Below, piece after piece: positions 4,270 to 9,166 of a stretch of 64,000 bases of DNA. Both the position numbers and the translations under genes were made by a program. Positions within the stretch are counted from its first letter, which is position 1. Each line of letters starts with the position of its first letter. This DNA is from a bacterium A37T11 (GTDB lineage: Bacteria; Bacteroidota; Bacteroidia; Sphingobacteriales; Sphingobacteriaceae), in assembly GCA_900109895.1 (NCBI GenBank), contig FOBR01000001.1:310001-374000 (forward strand), written 5' to 3'. The notes under the pieces are model-generated. The model worked only from the letters and a program-made list of their open reading frames with translations. It did not search any database and was not told the origin of the DNA.

Positions 4270-4722
4270 ATGTATAGCGTAATAAAATATTTCCATTCTG
4301 GCTGGCGGTATGTGGTCATGCTGCTCATTGTACTGGCTATTATAAGGGCATTTGCTGACTGGTTCGGCCATAAGAGTTATGGTGAAGGCAACCGTAAATT
4401 TAATTTGTTTGCCATGATCTCGGCCCATATCCAGCTACTTTTGGGTTTGGTTCTTTATTTTTTGAGCCCGCTACCCCAACCAGGTCATATGGGCGAGGCT
4501 ATGAAAAATGCGGTGTCACGCTATTGGACCGTTGAGCACCTTACTATGATGGTCATTGCCGTGGTGCTGATTACCATTGGGCACTCCCGCTCAAAAAAGG
4601 CTACGGAAGCTGTGGCTAAAAATAAGGCGATCGCCATTTTTTACACATTGGCAATCATCGTGGTGCTTATTGCTTTAAATAATCCTGAAAAAGGCGTTAG
4701 GATCTTTGGGAATTCTTTTTAG
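4270..4722 (+). CDS. Small four-helix membrane protein (possible cytochrome b-like)
   Basis: This 150-residue integral membrane protein has about four hydrophobic segments (roughly 14-30, 48-66, 90-105 and 120-137). Related Bacteroidota proteins are often labelled cytochrome B, and I recognise the layout (N-terminal KYFHSGWRY, then SAHIQLLLGLVLYFLSP). Histidines H9, H53, H90 and H105 lie in or at the ends of helices, which could fit haem binding, but nothing in the sequence proves it. A TATTTTTG box at 4240-4247 may be its promoter. It lies between the receptor and the trp leader and is probably monocistronic. Confidence 0.6.
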   Translation: MYSVIKYFHSGWRYVVMLLIVLAIIRAFADWFGHKSYGEGNRKFNLFAMISAHIQLLLGLVLYFLSPLPQPGHMGEAMKNAVSRYWTVEHLTMMVIAVVLITIGHSRSKKATEAVAKNKAIAIFYTLAIIVVLIALNNPEKGVRIFGNSF

Positions 4723-4759
4723 TAATTCGTTCATATAATAAAATTTTTAGGGACAAAAA

Positions 4760-4789
4760 TTTGTAATATCAAATTTATTTCTAAATTTG
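4760..4789 (+). promoter_or_regulatory. Promoter of the trp leader and operon
   Basis: TTTG (4760-4763) and TAAATTTG (4782-4789), separated by 18 bp, match both parts of the Bacteroidota sigma-ABfr-type consensus (TTTG, about 19 bp, TAnnTTTG). The predicted transcription start falls near 4793-4796, on or just before the GTG start of the leader peptide. Confidence 0.7.
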
Positions 4790-4794
4790 CGGTC

Positions 4795-4869
4795 GTGAAG
4801 TTAATACATACAACTTTTGGCAATTGGTGGTGGCCCTTGGAAAAGAGCGCCGGTAGTTGCTATATATAA
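4795..4869 (+). CDS. trpL: trp operon leader peptide
   Basis: This 24-codon reading frame starts with GTG and ends with TAA at 4867-4869. Its core reads FGNWWWPLEK, with three consecutive Trp codons at 4825-4833. Trp is the rarest residue, so three in a row ahead of trpE is the mark of a leader peptide whose translation senses charged tRNA-Trp. No Shine-Dalgarno sequence precedes it and no other in-frame start exists upstream, so the GTG is the only reasonable start. The stop codon overlaps the attenuator segment that would form the antiterminator. Confidence 0.85.
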   Translation: MKLIHTTFGNWWWPLEKSAGSCYI

Positions 4870-4938
4870 GGTTGGTGATAAGAAGAAATTAAGCCAAAAA
4901 ATAGATAACCCGACGCTTTAAAGTGGTCGGGTTTTTTT
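4811..4938 (+). promoter_or_regulatory. trp attenuator (ribosome-mediated)
   Basis: Four segments can be read. Segment 1, CAACTTT (4811-4817), lies just before the Trp codons and pairs over seven bases with AAGGTTG in segment 2 (4868-4874). Segment 2, AAGGTTGGT (4868-4876), can instead pair with ACCCGACGCTT (segment 3, 4908-4918) in nine pairs with two one-base bulges. Segment 3 also pairs with GTCGGGTT (4926-4933) to make the terminator. A ribosome stalled at Trp codons would cover segment 1 and favour the 2:3 antiterminator. One that reaches the stop codon covers segment 2 and favours termination. The pairings were worked out by eye, and no energies were calculated. Confidence 0.8.
4907..4938 (+). 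terminator. Rho-independent terminator of the trp attenuator
   Basis: AACCCGAC (4907-4914) is complementary to GTCGGGTT (4926-4933), and a run of T follows to 4938. It lies between the leader peptide and trpE, where it can stop transcription before the structural genes. Confidence 0.85.
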
Positions 4939-4992
4939 ATGGCCTAATCTTTCTACTAAAGCTCCTTATAAATGAATGTGTTTGTGATACAA

Positions 4993-5016
4993 ATGAAGAA
5001 ATAAATGAAGAAATAA
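4993..5016 (+). repeat. Tandem 12-bp repeat of start-stop mini-ORFs before trpE
   Basis: ATGAAGAAATAA occurs twice in direct tandem (4993-5004 and 5005-5016) and is followed at once by the trpE start ATGAAG at 5017. Each copy encodes Met-Lys-Lys-stop in the trpE frame, with each stop touching the next ATG. The first copy can also be the end of a ten-codon frame starting at 4972. It may affect trpE translation or may be a slippage duplication of the start region. Confidence 0.6.
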
Positions 5017-6423
5017 ATGAAGTATTTTTTAAAAACAACCTACAAAAAATTATTGGCAGACACGGCTACACCGGTCAGTATTTTCCTTAGGCTGCGGGAT
5101 GTATTTCCCAATTCGCTCTTGCTTGAAAGTTCTGACTACCACAGCCGGGAGAATAGTATGAGTTATGTGTGCTGTGAACCTATTGGGGGTATACGTTTGG
5201 AAGGAAACTCGCTGACTACTTTTTTCCCGGATGGAAAACGGATTGTTAAGGACGCGTCAACGATTAATTTACGCAGGGAGGTTTCTGAATTTCGTTCATC
5301 TTTTCAGTCAGGGGCTGAGGAAACCTTCAAGTTTATTTCTGGTGGCCTGTTTGGTTATTTTACGTTTGATGCGGTCGCTCATTTTGAGGATATTCATTTA
5401 CATGCTCCTGAAGATCCTTCCAGAAATATCCCGTTCCTGAATTATCAGGTTTATCGGTATGTGATCGCTATAGACCATTTCAAAAATGAACTTTACATTT
5501 TTGAGCACCATTGTGGGGATGAACCGGCTACCGGGCTGGAGAAAATGCAGTTCCTGATTCAAAACAAGAATTTTCCGGAATACCCGTTTGCGGTAAAAGG
5601 CAGCGAGCAATCAAATATGACGGATGAAGCGTTTATGGATTTGGTTAAAAAAATGAAAACACATATCTATCGTGGAGATGTGTTTCAAATTGTGCCGTCA
5701 AGAGCTTTTTCTATATCATTTACTGGAGATGAGTTTAATGTTTACCGTGCGTTGCGCTCAGTTAATCCTTCGCCGTACCTGTTCTACTTTGATTATGGTG
5801 ACTTTAAGCTGATGGGCTCGTCTCCCGAAGCTCAGCTTACGATCAAGAACCGGGAGGCTACGATCTATCCCATCGCAGGGACTTTTAAGCGAAGAGGCAA
5901 CCTGGAGGAAGACATACAGCTGGCTGAAACCCTTAAAGCTGACCCGAAAGAAAGTGCTGAGCACGTAATGTTGGTTGATTTAGCACGCAATGACCTGAGC
6001 CGCCATTGCCGTAACGTGAGCGTTAAATCGTTTAAGGAGGCCCAGTATTACTCGCACGTGATCCACCTGGTTTCAAGAGTTAGCGGCATCTTGGGCGCAA
6101 ATACAAATTCGTTTGATGTGGTGGGTGATACGTTTCCGGCCGGCACATTGAGCGGTGCTCCTAAGCACATGGCCATCCAGCTAATAGACCGCTATGAGGG
6201 CCAGCAAAGGGGTTTTTATAGTGGGGCGATTGGATACATGGGCTTCGATGGGGAGTTTAACCATGCCATTATGATTCGTACATTTCTCAGTAAAAATAAT
6301 GTACTCCATTACCAGGCCGGAGCCGGTATTGTAGCCGCTTCTGATCCGGAAAGCGAACTAAATGAGGTGAACAATAAGATTGCTGCGCTAAGGAAGGCAC
6401 TGGATTTGGCCTGTGAAATTTAA
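5017..6423 (+). CDS. trpE: Anthranilate synthase component I
   Basis: This 468-residue chorismate-using enzyme makes anthranilate from chorismate and ammonia supplied by TrpG. The N-terminal LLES motif (residues about 35-38), part of the Trp feedback site in TrpE proteins, is present, so the enzyme is probably inhibited by Trp. The catalytic C-terminal part shows DVFQIVPSRAF, PIAGTFKRRG, VDLARNDLSR, FPAGTLSGAPK and QAGAGIVAASDPE. The ATG at 5017 follows two in-frame start-stop mini-ORFs. Expression should be controlled by the attenuator at 4811-4938. PabB is the main alternative, but the Trp-rich leader and the linked trpC make TrpE much more likely. Confidence 0.96.
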   Translation: MKYFLKTTYKKLLADTATPVSIFLRLRDVFPNSLLLESSDYHSRENSMSYVCCEPIGGIRLEGNSLTTFFPDGKRIVKDASTINLRREVSEFRSSFQSGAEETFKFISGGLFGYFTFDAVAHFEDIHLHAPEDPSRNIPFLNYQVYRYVIAIDHFKNELYIFEHHCGDEPATGLEKMQFLIQNKNFPEYPFAVKGSEQSNMTDEAFMDLVKKMKTHIYRGDVFQIVPSRAFSISFTGDEFNVYRALRSVNPSPYLFYFDYGDFKLMGSSPEAQLTIKNREATIYPIAGTFKRRGNLEEDIQLAETLKADPKESAEHVMLVDLARNDLSRHCRNVSVKSFKEAQYYSHVIHLVSRVSGILGANTNSFDVVGDTFPAGTLSGAPKHMAIQLIDRYEGQQRGFYSGAIGYMGFDGEFNHAIMIRTFLSKNNVLHYQAGAGIVAASDPESELNEVNNKIAALRKALDLACEI

Positions 6424-6462: not shown

Positions 6463-7068
6463 ATGAGCGAAAACAGTACACTTAATAAAAATGTCTTAGT
6501 AATAGATAACTACGACTCTTTTACGTTTAACCTGGTTCATTTATTGCATGAATGCAACGTGGAGGCCACTGTGTGGAGAAATGATAAGTTTGCTTTGGAA
6601 GAAGTGGAGGCCTTTGATAAGATTATTTTATCGCCAGGTCCGGGCATACCCGAAGAGGCCGGGTTATTACTGGAGGTGATCAAATCTTATGGGCCTCATA
6701 AAAGTATTTTGGGTGTGTGCCTGGGCCAACAGGCTATTGCTGAAGTTTACGGCGGCCAGCTTTTCAATTTGCAAAGTCCGGTGCATGGTGTGGCTACTCC
6801 TATACGAGTTACTGACCCTGCCGAAATTCTTTTTGATGGTTTACCAAATCAATTTATGGTAGGCCGCTATCATTCATGGGCGGTTTCAAAAGAAGGTTTT
6901 CCGGACGTGCTTAAGGTTACGGCACTTGACAGTGAAGGGGTCATCATGGCCTTGTCTCATAAACACTATGACGTAAGGGGGGTTCAGTTCCATCCAGAAT
7001 CTGTATTGAGTGAACATGGCCGGAAGATGATAGAAAATTGGTTGGTTACAGCAAAAAATACGAAATAA
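6463..7068 (+). CDS. trpG: Anthranilate synthase component II (glutamine amidotransferase)
   Basis: This 201-residue class I glutamine amidotransferase supplies ammonia to TrpE. The nucleophile is Cys86 in GVCLGQQAI, and the His177/Glu179 pair is in FHPESVLSEHG. The oxyanion motif SPGPGIPEEAG is at about 58-67. It follows trpE by 39 bp and precedes trpC by 7 bp in the same operon. In many bacteria the same subunit also serves aminodeoxychorismate synthase (PabA role). That may hold here, but the context points to tryptophan. Confidence 0.95.
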   Translation: MSENSTLNKNVLVIDNYDSFTFNLVHLLHECNVEATVWRNDKFALEEVEAFDKIILSPGPGIPEEAGLLLEVIKSYGPHKSILGVCLGQQAIAEVYGGQLFNLQSPVHGVATPIRVTDPAEILFDGLPNQFMVGRYHSWAVSKEGFPDVLKVTALDSEGVIMALSHKHYDVRGVQFHPESVLSEHGRKMIENWLVTAKNTK

Positions 7069-7075
7069 TAAGACC

Positions 7076-7870
7076 ATGAATATACTTGACCAGATTATTG
7101 AACGAAAAAAGGCTGAGGTGTTGCTGGCCAAAAATTCCGTGAGCCTTGATACGCTTCAGCATATGCCTCTGTTTGGCCGGATATGCCTTAAAATGCTAAA
7201 TTTTGTTACTTCACCTTACCGGAATGGCATTATTGCTGAGTTCAAACGGGCGTCTCCTTCAAAGGGAATGATCAACCAGGATGCTGCGGTTGATGTGGTG
7301 GTGAAGGGCTACGAATTAGCCGGTGCCTCTGCAGTATCTGTACTTACGGATAGCGATTTTTTTCATGGGAGCTTGGACGACCTGTTGCTCGCGCGGCAAT
7401 CGCTACTCATACCCTTGCTGCGAAAAGATTTTATAATTGACACTTACCAAATTGCAGAAGCTAAGGCCCACGGGGCAGATATTATATTGCTCATTGCTGC
7501 GGTTCTTTCCCCCGCAGAGATTAACCAACTGGCTAGCTATGCCAAGGCACTCGGTCTAAATGTGCTACTGGAAGTTCATAACCGCGAAGAGCTGGATCGT
7601 AGCCTGTCTGAGTATGTGGATGCTGTGGGGGTAAATAACCGCGATTTGACCGACTTTTCGGTTTCTATTGATCATTCCCTGGAGCTTGTTGACTTGATTC
7701 CGGCATCTTTCATCAAGGTCTCTGAAAGTGGCATCAGTGATCCGGCAACGATTAATCAGTTAAAAAAGGCAGGGTTTGATGCTTTTTTGATTGGTGAAAA
7801 TTTTATGAAAACAAATGATCCGGTACGAGCGATCCAATCCTTTACTAGCCAGCTTAACGGGGAAAGCTAA
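7076..7870 (+). CDS. trpC: Indole-3-glycerol phosphate synthase
   Basis: This 264-residue TIM-barrel enzyme closes the indole ring from carboxyphenylaminodeoxyribulose 5-phosphate. Motifs in order are AEFKRASPSKG (Glu55, Lys57), VLTDSDFFHGSLDDL, LLRKDFI, GVNNRDL, VSESGI and FLIGENFM, all expected for TrpC. It is the last gene of the operon here. Its 3' end overlaps the convergent anmK gene by 17 bp. trpD, whose product acts earlier in the pathway and whose gene usually sits between trpG and trpC in this phylum, is absent, as are trpF, trpB and trpA. Confidence 0.96.
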   Translation: MNILDQIIERKKAEVLLAKNSVSLDTLQHMPLFGRICLKMLNFVTSPYRNGIIAEFKRASPSKGMINQDAAVDVVVKGYELAGASAVSVLTDSDFFHGSLDDLLLARQSLLIPLLRKDFIIDTYQIAEAKAHGADIILLIAAVLSPAEINQLASYAKALGLNVLLEVHNREELDRSLSEYVDAVGVNNRDLTDFSVSIDHSLELVDLIPASFIKVSESGISDPATINQLKKAGFDAFLIGENFMKTNDPVRAIQSFTSQLNGES

Positions 7871-9044
7871 CCTTACCCATACAGATGGCGGGTGAACCGC
7901 TGATACCGGATGCGTTTTCTGGAGATCCTGCTATTGTTTCATTGGCCAGCAGGGCAAACAGGGCCGCTTCTTTCGCGTCGGGTGGCAGTCCGAGTTCCTT
8001 AAATGACGTGATCCGTATATTCGGCAGTTGTTGTTTTAGCAGTTGCATAAGTCGGGGATTATGCAAACCTCCTCCACTTGCATATACCACAACGGGATCT
8101 TGATTGAAATTTGTATTTCGCACGGCCTGGCTTATGCTTGCGGCTGAAAATGCACATAAGGTGGCCATAATATCTTCGGGGGTAAGGTTTAATGTTCCTG
8201 ATTGATGCTGCGCACGTTCTAAATAATCAAGATTGAACAGTTCCGGGCCCGTGGTGCGGGGGAGAGGTAGTTCAAAAAAAGTGTTAGATAACAATGCTTG
8301 CAATAAAACTTCACTGACATTGCCTTTTATCGCCATTTCGGCATCAGTGTCCATCAATTTTCCTAACTGATGTTGCATATACTGATCCATCAGGGTATTT
8401 CCGGGCCCGGTGTCAGTGGAGAATACACCACTGCCACTTGCTGGTAGATAGGTGAAATTGGCAATGCCTCCTATATTTAGCAGCACTCGATTCTCATGGC
8501 TGTCTGAAAATAAAAGGTAGTCACCATAGGCTGCCAATGGTGCTCCCTCTCCTCCTCCCGCCAGGTGTTTTTGCCTGAAATCTGAAATGGTTATAATGCC
8601 CGTATTTACCGCAATGTGATCACCGTCACCTATTTGAAGCGTACTATTTGGTAAGTCTGTATGGCCGGTAAGTGACTGTGGTGCATGAAACACGGTTTGA
8701 CCATGGCTGGCAATCAGGTCAATTGCCGATGGCTGAACTTGCCACTCTTTCAGTGTTTCTAAAATATAAGCTGCGTGACGAATACCTATAAGCGCATTTA
8801 GCCCGCATAGCTTTTCAAAATCGACCGTGCGTTTGGCAAAAATAGTTTTGATCTGCTCCCTAAAATCCGGAGGATAGGCAACTGTTTTAAATTGATCAAC
8901 GGACAGCCGTGTATGCCGCCCGCTTCCACTTATCCGGCAAAGAGCGATATCCAAGCCGTCAAGCGAGGTGCCCGACATGAGCCCGATGATAAGACGTTGG
9001 GGCTTTTGGGCAATTATTACCAATTTTTCAAGTTGTTCATTCAT
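7854..9044 (-). CDS. anmK: Anhydro-N-acetylmuramic acid kinase
   Basis: The 396-residue sugar kinase phosphorylates and opens 1,6-anhydro-MurNAc released from peptidoglycan, giving MurNAc-6-P for recycling. The nucleotide-binding GLMSGTSLDGLD is at about residues 21-32. LLNIGGIANFTYL and FSTDTGPGNTLMD follow, and the C-terminal half has VVYASGGGLHNP and PDAKEAALFALLA. The start was set at 9044 (MNEQLEKL), because the 15 extra residues up to 9089 do not resemble the family. It is divergent from the nagB fusion gene, another amino-sugar gene, and convergent with trpC. No murQ is nearby. Confidence 0.93.
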   Translation of the reverse strand: MNEQLEKLVIIAQKPQRLIIGLMSGTSLDGLDIALCRISGSGRHTRLSVDQFKTVAYPPDFREQIKTIFAKRTVDFEKLCGLNALIGIRHAAYILETLKEWQVQPSAIDLIASHGQTVFHAPQSLTGHTDLPNSTLQIGDGDHIAVNTGIITISDFRQKHLAGGGEGAPLAAYGDYLLFSDSHENRVLLNIGGIANFTYLPASGSGVFSTDTGPGNTLMDQYMQHQLGKLMDTDAEMAIKGNVSEVLLQALLSNTFFELPLPRTTGPELFNLDYLERAQHQSGTLNLTPEDIMATLCAFSAASISQAVRNTNFNQDPVVVYASGGGLHNPRLMQLLKQQLPNIRITSFKELGLPPDAKEAALFALLANETIAGSPENASGISGSPAICMGKVSFPR

Positions 9045-9166
9045 GTATGCACTCGATTGTTTTGCTATTTTTTGATAAAAGTAATGCAAAAAACTATAAA
9101 TATTTAAATAAGCTATATAAAGTTTTACTATTTTTGCTGCTCACCTTAATTTCTAGTATCCATAAA

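Follow-up and report, generated by a model that had tools for sequence, protein, structure and literature searches.

The window, that is, the whole 64-kb stretch of DNA that was analysed, carries near its beginning a short leader ORF with three adjacent Trp codons and an intrinsic terminator, followed by genes of tryptophan biosynthesis. The features of the locus are listed here, with coordinates counted from the first base of the window.

4760-4763, + strand: TTTG, putative -33 element of a sigma-ABfr-type promoter, 18 nt before the -7 element
4782-4789, + strand: putative -7 element TAAATTTG (consensus TAnnTTTG), ending 5 nt before the start codon
4794-4795, + strand: predicted transcription start, from promoter spacing (5' UTR of 0-1 nt)
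4795-4869, + strand: leader peptide ORF VKLIHTTFGNWWWPLEKSAGSCYI, GTG start, 24 codons, stop TAA at 4867-4869
4825-4833, + strand: three Trp codons, TGG TGG TGG, read from the sequence; the putative sensor
4818-4838, + strand: segment 1, 5' arm of the leader hairpin, overlapping the Trp codons (predicted folds)
4843-4862, + strand: segment 2, 3' arm of the leader hairpin, of which 4844-4853 is the predicted antiterminator part with segment 3 (folds, covariation)
4909-4919, + strand: segment 3, 5' arm of the terminator and alternative partner for segment 2 (folds, covariation)
4907-4933, + strand: intrinsic terminator hairpin, segments 3:4, -13.0 kcal/mol for the whole hairpin
4932-4938, + strand: U-run of the terminator, read from the sequence
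5017-6423, + strand: trpE, anthranilate synthase component I family (TIGR00564, E 1.5e-126, 423.1 bits, under the curated cut-off of 517.7)
6463-7068, + strand: trpG/pabA-type glutamine amidotransferase (TIGR00566, 175.8 bits, above cut-off)
7076-7870, + strand: trpC, indole-3-glycerol phosphate synthase (NF001377, 287.4 bits, above cut-off)

The gene order after the leader, identified with profile HMMs, is thus trpE-trpG-trpC. The 24-codon leader with three adjacent Trp codons had been described in an earlier note on this DNA, and that description holds as it was given. The fold of 4795-4945 is stronger than those of all 200 of 200 dinucleotide shuffles (z -3.2). Two observations concern the surroundings of the operon. 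A perfect 12-bp tandem repeat, AAATGAAGAAAT, is present in 2.7 copies at 4991-5022 and yields two mini-ORFs, each reading MKK and a stop (4993-5004 and 5005-5016), the last stop abutting the ATG of trpE at 5017; the repeat has the appearance of a duplication of the region where trpE starts and could tune initiation. At the other end, the last 17 bp of trpC (7854-7870) are shared with a minus-strand anhydro-N-acetylmuramic acid kinase gene (7854-9089).

The comparative analysis was based on two samples. The related set comprises 81 loci, namely the window and the best 80 of at least 567 TrpE relatives in named genomes, mostly from Parapedobacter (TrpE 73-76% identical), Sphingobacterium, Olivibacter, Daejeonella, Pedobacter, Mucilaginibacter and other Sphingobacteriales, with two loci (L029 and L066) labelled just 'Bacteroidetes bacterium'. 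TrpE matches at E <= 1e-60 were obtained in 129 of 148 phylum genomes and 58 of 178 class genomes, and the phylum sample consists of 100 trpE upstream stretches, 69 from the 71 class matches and 31 from the 96 matches outside the class. The two class matches left out were G195, without upstream sequence, and G152, in which the Rfam model RF01692, that of the catalogued trp leader of Bacteroidetes, gave a score of 39.2 bits immediately before the trpE match.

A Trp-rich short leader ORF, with its Trp codons adjacent or once interrupted, and a terminator precede trpE in all 81 related-set loci. The earlier note had named loss of the Trp codons in close relatives as grounds for abandoning its reading, and none of these relatives has lost them. 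The start codon is GTG in the window as against ATG in the other 80 loci, which speaks against the leaderless message proposed below in so far as leaderless GTG starts are considered weak. In the phylum sample, leader and terminator were found at 71 of 100 loci (56 of 69 in the class and 15 of 31 outside it), which indicates that RF01692 covers just a portion of a broader group with diverse sequences. As to the 29 misses, the upstream sequence of L133 is only 151 nt long, L131, L154, L155 and L162 do show Trp leaders but beyond the start-to-Trp limit applied, and L101 has a Trp leader without an accepted terminator. A further miss, L141 in genome G208, has an RF01692 match of 78.1 bits (L183, contig C3 788912-789049) about 1.3 kb upstream of the trpE match, so that leader and trpE seem to be separated in this genome. 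Outside the class, the leader MMKNKNKYFGFTWAWFWFNKSCGTPV upstream of trpE at L177 mixes Trp and Phe codons, which suggests a sensor of two aromatic amino acids, and genome G158 has two TrpE-like matches (L127 and L140) preceded by the Trp-rich leaders MILNTNTWRWQVSLS and MKKQFVNNSWWWFSTKVVNG.

Examination of the sequences upstream of the leaders pointed to a conserved promoter at a short distance from the start codon. An exact TAnnTTTG stands before the leader in 76 of the 81 related-set loci (81 of 81 at one mismatch or fewer) compared with 13 of 35,901 background positions, TTTG lies 18-19 nt upstream of it in 67 of 81, and the distance from the -7 element to the first in-frame ATG or GTG is 3-10 nt in 78 of 81 (mode 7; 5-8 nt in 62 of 81). 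The consensus of the -7 element is that given in passages of two studies of the phylum (PMC6847099, PMC7366714), the first of which describes many -7 elements of F. johnsoniae as sitting 4 or 5 nt before the transcription start. Because the gap in the window is 5 nt, this spacing predicts a 5' UTR of 0-1 nt, and because the sigma-ABfr-like promoter ends so close to the start codon the leader message is probably leaderless or nearly so. No report of leaderless trp leaders in Bacteroidota was found in searches of an open-access library.

The alternative that transcription starts further upstream, and that the leader is translated from an ordinary 5' UTR, is rather unlikely. Leaderless messages form a minority in the phylum: they amount to 5.5% in the figures given for F. 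psychrophilum (PMC9723704), about 3.7% of 5' UTRs in B. thetaiotaomicron are stated to be shorter than 10 nt (PMC7366714), and 87% of the F. johnsoniae transcripts with a probable promoter are reported to have leaders longer than 10 nt (PMC6847099). Likewise, the gap is 10 nt in 10 of the 81 related-set loci, that is, perhaps a UTR of 5-6 nt, and among the class loci of the phylum sample the -7 element lies 10 nt or less from the start codon in 30 of 56 and 16-20 nt before the ATG in 14 of 56. The length of the 5' UTR therefore seems, as far as promoter positions tell, to have shifted within the class; many leaders of family f4 (L088-L099 and similar) have their -7 element 16-20 nt before the ATG. 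Against a leadered message in the window stand the exact -7 element, the short gap and the -33 spacing shared by most of the related set.

The trp genes of the window's genome are split, with trpEGC in the window and trpDFB on another contig (C14), where trpD is found with trpF and the start of trpB. Each group lies behind its own Trp leader, the second one at the following position.

L189:1324-1455, contig C14: MNVKFVNINGWWHRDFLCGMTL, the second Trp leader, with its terminator, ahead of trpD-trpF-trpB

The sequence before trpD shows CATATTTG, then 13 nt on MNVKFVNINGWWHRDFLCGMTL, and then a terminator of -19.6 kcal/mol whose T-run ends 30 nt before trpD. To cover further genomes we used a model, R1, built from 77 aligned trpE leaders (77 of the 81 related-set sequences, the four dropped being identical from the Trp codons to the terminator). 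At E <= 0.1 and at any genome position, R1 matches in 41 of 41 genomes of the order, all of them from the window's family. Of 20 second R1 matches in 20 chosen genomes, 19 have a Trp-rich leader and 18 are then followed by trpD-like and trpF-like ORFs, as judged by eye with an HMM check for L189 and L232 only; the exceptions are L241, which stops at a contig end, and L245, which gave nothing.

This arrangement bears on the possibility that, besides attenuation, the terminated short RNA or the leader peptide acts in trans in the manner of rnTrpL and peTrpL of S. meliloti, as these are described in passages of PMC7298713. The layout resembles the S. meliloti one in its predicted 5' end at the start codon, its terminated short RNA and its split trp genes. 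However, the peptide varies widely, by eye, outside the Trp and structure-bearing codons, and trans control would be unneeded because trpDF has a leader and terminator of its own. We regard action in trans as quite improbable.

Analysis of the 77 aligned leaders allowed us to identify which pairings have been conserved. The terminator, which the earlier note had placed at 4907-4914/4926-4933 with a T-run at 4932-4938 (arms -12.1 kcal/mol), is confirmed: the 3:4 helix is paired in 98.7% of cells with a covariation of 0.257. Its alternative, the antiterminator 2:3, joins leader codons of the type GCGUCGGG (columns 65-72) to the 5' arm of the terminator and is paired in 82.2% of cells, with a covariation of 0.146 against a shuffle mean of 0.100 and none of 500 shuffles as high. 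When this helix was slid to other registers the covariation was 0.065 or less, and these slid controls weigh more since the alignment shuffles leave relatedness in place. Covarying partners include GUC opposite GAC, AUC opposite GAU and GCC opposite GGC. Segment 2 is thus similar to segment 4, with which it competes for segment 3. The codons directly after the Trp codons form a 1:2 helix with segment 2 in 67.0% of cells, with a covariation of 0.269 that none of 500 shuffles attained; its register differs from that of the window's own leader hairpin. The window itself retains six of the eight consensus 2:3 pairs and two of the six consensus 1:2 pairs. The reading frame, its Trp codons, the terminator, the covarying 2:3 and 3:4 helices and the promoter spacing are accordingly what the sequence and its comparison with relatives bring out.

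Other measures of the antiterminator were less uniform. Complementarity to the terminator arm is strongest at the expected offset, with a mean of -10.5 kcal/mol versus -2.5 to -7.0 at four other offsets. Exchanging arms between related-set loci discriminated poorly, as the arms resemble one another. Compared with swapped arms, the native pairing does better than average in 43 of 69 and in 32 of 69 distinct loci (pooled, 92 of 138). Of the other related-set leaders, 63% pair with the window's terminator arm equally well or better. The 2:3 duplex is better than shuffles at p <= 0.05 in only 50 of 81 related-set and 22 of 71 phylum-sample loci, and it is poor in several relatives, for example L014, L019, L021, L029 and L064. 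For many loci of family f4 (terminator GGCTTGTC) no convincing antiterminator partner was found, and we therefore do not claim the 2:3 model for them.

It is very improbable that the attenuator, though real, uses the pairings drawn in the earlier note, in which 4811-4817 pairs with 4868-4874 (1:2), 4868-4876 pairs with 4908-4918 (2:3) and segment 2 lies at the stop codon. Both helices can be drawn, at -4.2 and -7.1 kcal/mol respectively. The first is perfectly complementary and forms the base of the larger hairpin (4818-4862) present without a ribosome, in which state the second has an expected 1.2 pairs. Nevertheless, neither rises above shuffles in the 77 loci and both were rejected as conserved elements. 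The weak 1:2 is paired in 44.7% of cells (254 of 500 shuffles at least as high, and its covariation reached by 27 of 500), and the 2:3 in 35.8%, under the shuffle mean of 37.2%. With a stalled ribosome, moreover, the latter is expected to form 0.00002 pairs as against 7.95 for 4845-4854. The expectation that relatives would keep the pairings is hence borne out for 3:4 and fails for the other two. Nor does the stop codon regularly fall on segment 2: it follows the first Trp codon by 15 to 60 nt across the 81 loci, and the conserved segment 2 ends before or at the stop codon in 76 of them, lying within the ORF in most.

What holds its position is segment 2 relative to the Trp codons. A ribosome with a Trp codon in its A site protects a stretch that ends about 13-17 nt downstream, and a ruler set by the ribosome edge predicts a constant distance from the Trp codons to segment 2. 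In 60 of the 81 related-set loci the part of segment 2 that enters the duplex begins 20-23 nt beyond the first Trp codon (20 nt in the window). The spacing is looser in the phylum sample, with starts at 17-28 nt in 40 of 71 loci against 77 of 81 in the related set.

Modelling of the window with a ribosome on the Trp codons gave pairing of 4844-4853 with 4910-4919. The probability that segment 3 is paired upstream is 0.88 for a first free base located 5-20 nt beyond the beginning of the first Trp codon, and it falls as the ribosome moves on, to 0.62 at 23 nt, 0.47 at 26 nt and 0.38 at 29 nt. A ribosome at the stop codon gives 0.24. With no ribosome the value is 0.34, because the hairpin 4818-4862 then holds segment 2. 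Averaged over the 81 loci, the probability is 0.78 in the stalled state, 0.58 when there is no ribosome and 0.12 when the ribosome has reached the stop codon; the stalled mean drops to 0.52 once the segment-2 region is shuffled. Pairing in the stalled state exceeds the locus's own shuffle mean in 76 of 81 related-set and 67 of 71 phylum-sample loci, reaching p <= 0.04 in only 41 of 81 and 23 of 71, respectively. Since the ribosome-free mean is still 0.58, clean super-attenuation appears to be absent in many relatives under this simple model. That the antiterminator excludes the terminator and is exposed by a ribosome on the Trp codons is borne out by modelling and covariation, the window's own 2:3 duplex being weak when taken alone (-9.9 kcal/mol, z -1.2, p 0.11 versus shuffles).

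The equilibrium fold of the full-length window leader favours the terminator at 0.93 both with a stalled ribosome and without one. This figure suits a constitutive terminator behind an unrelated small gene with no Trp regulation, an explanation that we nonetheless find scarcely credible: the Trp codons, the terminator and their position before trpE are kept in all 81 loci, segment 2 covaries and stays at its distance from the Trp codons, and trpDF too is preceded by Trp-rich leaders with terminators. As the equilibrium favours the terminator even when the ribosome is stalled, switching has to depend on kinetics. TrpR, TRAP and the T-box control trp genes in other phyla, a precedent that makes a Trp-binding protein or a tRNA-reading T-box conceivable here and yet an almost negligible possibility, as in the 41 genomes of the order none was found over cut-off while control genomes were positive in each search: TrpR in 0 of 41 (one weak match, G330), TRAP (PF02081) with no matches, the window's genome included, and the T-box (RF00230) in 0 of 41 under stricter filters (one weak match, G335), with no T-box match in the window in the Rfam scan.

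Taking all the results together, we consider it very probable that 4795-4938 is a ribosome-mediated transcription attenuator of trpE-trpG-trpC with the antiterminator 4844-4853/4910-4919; its message is probably leaderless or nearly so. As a ribosome-mediated trp attenuator in a member of the Bacteroidota, which is what the earlier note had proposed, the element is strongly supported by conservation, covariation, operon content and modelling, even though two of the three pairings first drawn for it are unconserved. RNA polymerase would begin at the leader GTG or one base before, and the ribosome would load at the 5' end of the message. When charged tRNA-Trp is scarce, we infer that the ribosome stalls on the Trp codons at 4825-4833, covering segment 1, with its leading edge stopping just short of segment 2 (4844-4853); segment 2, being free, would pair with 4910-4919 and the terminator would be blocked. 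When Trp is plentiful the ribosome would run over segment 2, leaving segment 3 free, and the terminator 4907-4933 with its U-run would end transcription, so that tryptophan would control the operon in vivo. Without a ribosome, segments 1 and 2 would pair (4818-4862) and the terminator would form too.

A more general model can be proposed for the window's family (f1; Sphingobacteriaceae by its named relatives), to which we give about an even chance. In this model Trp control would be exerted through two attenuators per genome, at trpE and trpDF; the trpE leader would start within a few bases of its start codon; segment 2 would be set by a ribosome-length ruler and not by the stop codon; and leaderless loading would keep the ribosome close behind RNA polymerase. 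The Bacteroidota are described as a phylum naturally without Shine-Dalgarno sequences (PMC6847099). If the model is true, the ribosome can board once the 5' end of the leader emerges, in a phylum that hardly uses such sites. Attenuation requires a ribosome close behind RNA polymerase, and how this is done without Shine-Dalgarno sites becomes directly testable with the working anatomy gained here, namely the ribosome-length ruler from the Trp codons to segment 2 and the probable leaderless start.

Among known systems, the enterobacterial trpL (RF00513) shares with the window the Trp codons, the alternating 1:2, 2:3 and 3:4 helices and the terminator before trpE. E. coli trpL has a Shine-Dalgarno site in front of it and its segment 2 downstream of the leader stop codon, whereas the window has segment 2 inside the ORF and probably a leaderless message. 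RF00513 (Trp_leader) scores 19.5 bits (E 0.13) in the window region, under its gathering score of 41, and no Rfam gathering score was reached in the whole 64 kb; the sub-threshold matches in this region (STnc240, Trp_leader and DnaX among them) were taken as chance matches to terminator-like sequence. A closer likeness in the 5' end is offered by S. meliloti trpL (rnTrpL), whose leader RNA is described as having its 5' end at the ATG of the leader ORF and as attenuating trpE(G) (PMC7298713). The window leader shares the probable attenuation of trpE, and its RNA is predicted to start at the start codon or one base before it, but S. meliloti belongs to another phylum and uses another promoter type; and in the passages concerned attenuation is stated for trpE(G) only, whereas in the window's genome trpD also has a Trp leader and terminator.

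Within the phylum, passages of a study of F. psychrophilum report 'strong clues' for leader-peptide attenuation before amino-acid operons (PMC9723704), the same inferred mechanism as in the window; these passages give neither pairings nor start sites of trp leaders. A passage of PMC2965389, from 2010, states that, ermC apart, only Proteobacteria and Actinobacteria had been shown to possess leader-peptide systems before the Firmicutes case described in the paper itself. The earlier note was right that such attenuators had already been proposed in Bacteroidetes: RF01692, 'Bacteroid-trp', is that proposal, listed as the Bacteroidete tryptophan peptide leader RNA in Table 1 of Weinberg et al. 2010 (PMC2864571), and the novelty of the element is correspondingly smaller than that note implied. 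RF01692 is like the window in coming from Bacteroidetes, in lying before trpE, in its Trp-rich leader ORF and in a hairpin across the Trp codons followed by the 5' arm of a terminator; it differs in that terminator, which reads CCCGAC as against GGCUUGUC in the window. The model gave no match in the window at gathering (49 bits), in 4701-5020 at E <= 10 or in the window's genome at E <= 1. Three of 20 loci scanned scored above its cut-off, none of them among the 10 that come from the related set or from the family of the window, and at these three the -7 element lies 18, 18 and 5 nt from the ATG. Of 99 class genomes, 3 gave a match over the cut-off and 17 a match at E <= 1. Since RF01692 is known and attenuation has been reported in F. 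psychrophilum, 4795-4938 is best seen as a member of an already catalogued kind, though one that the RF01692 model misses, to which the present analysis adds a corrected pairing, a ribosome ruler, a probable leaderless start and a second trp leader.
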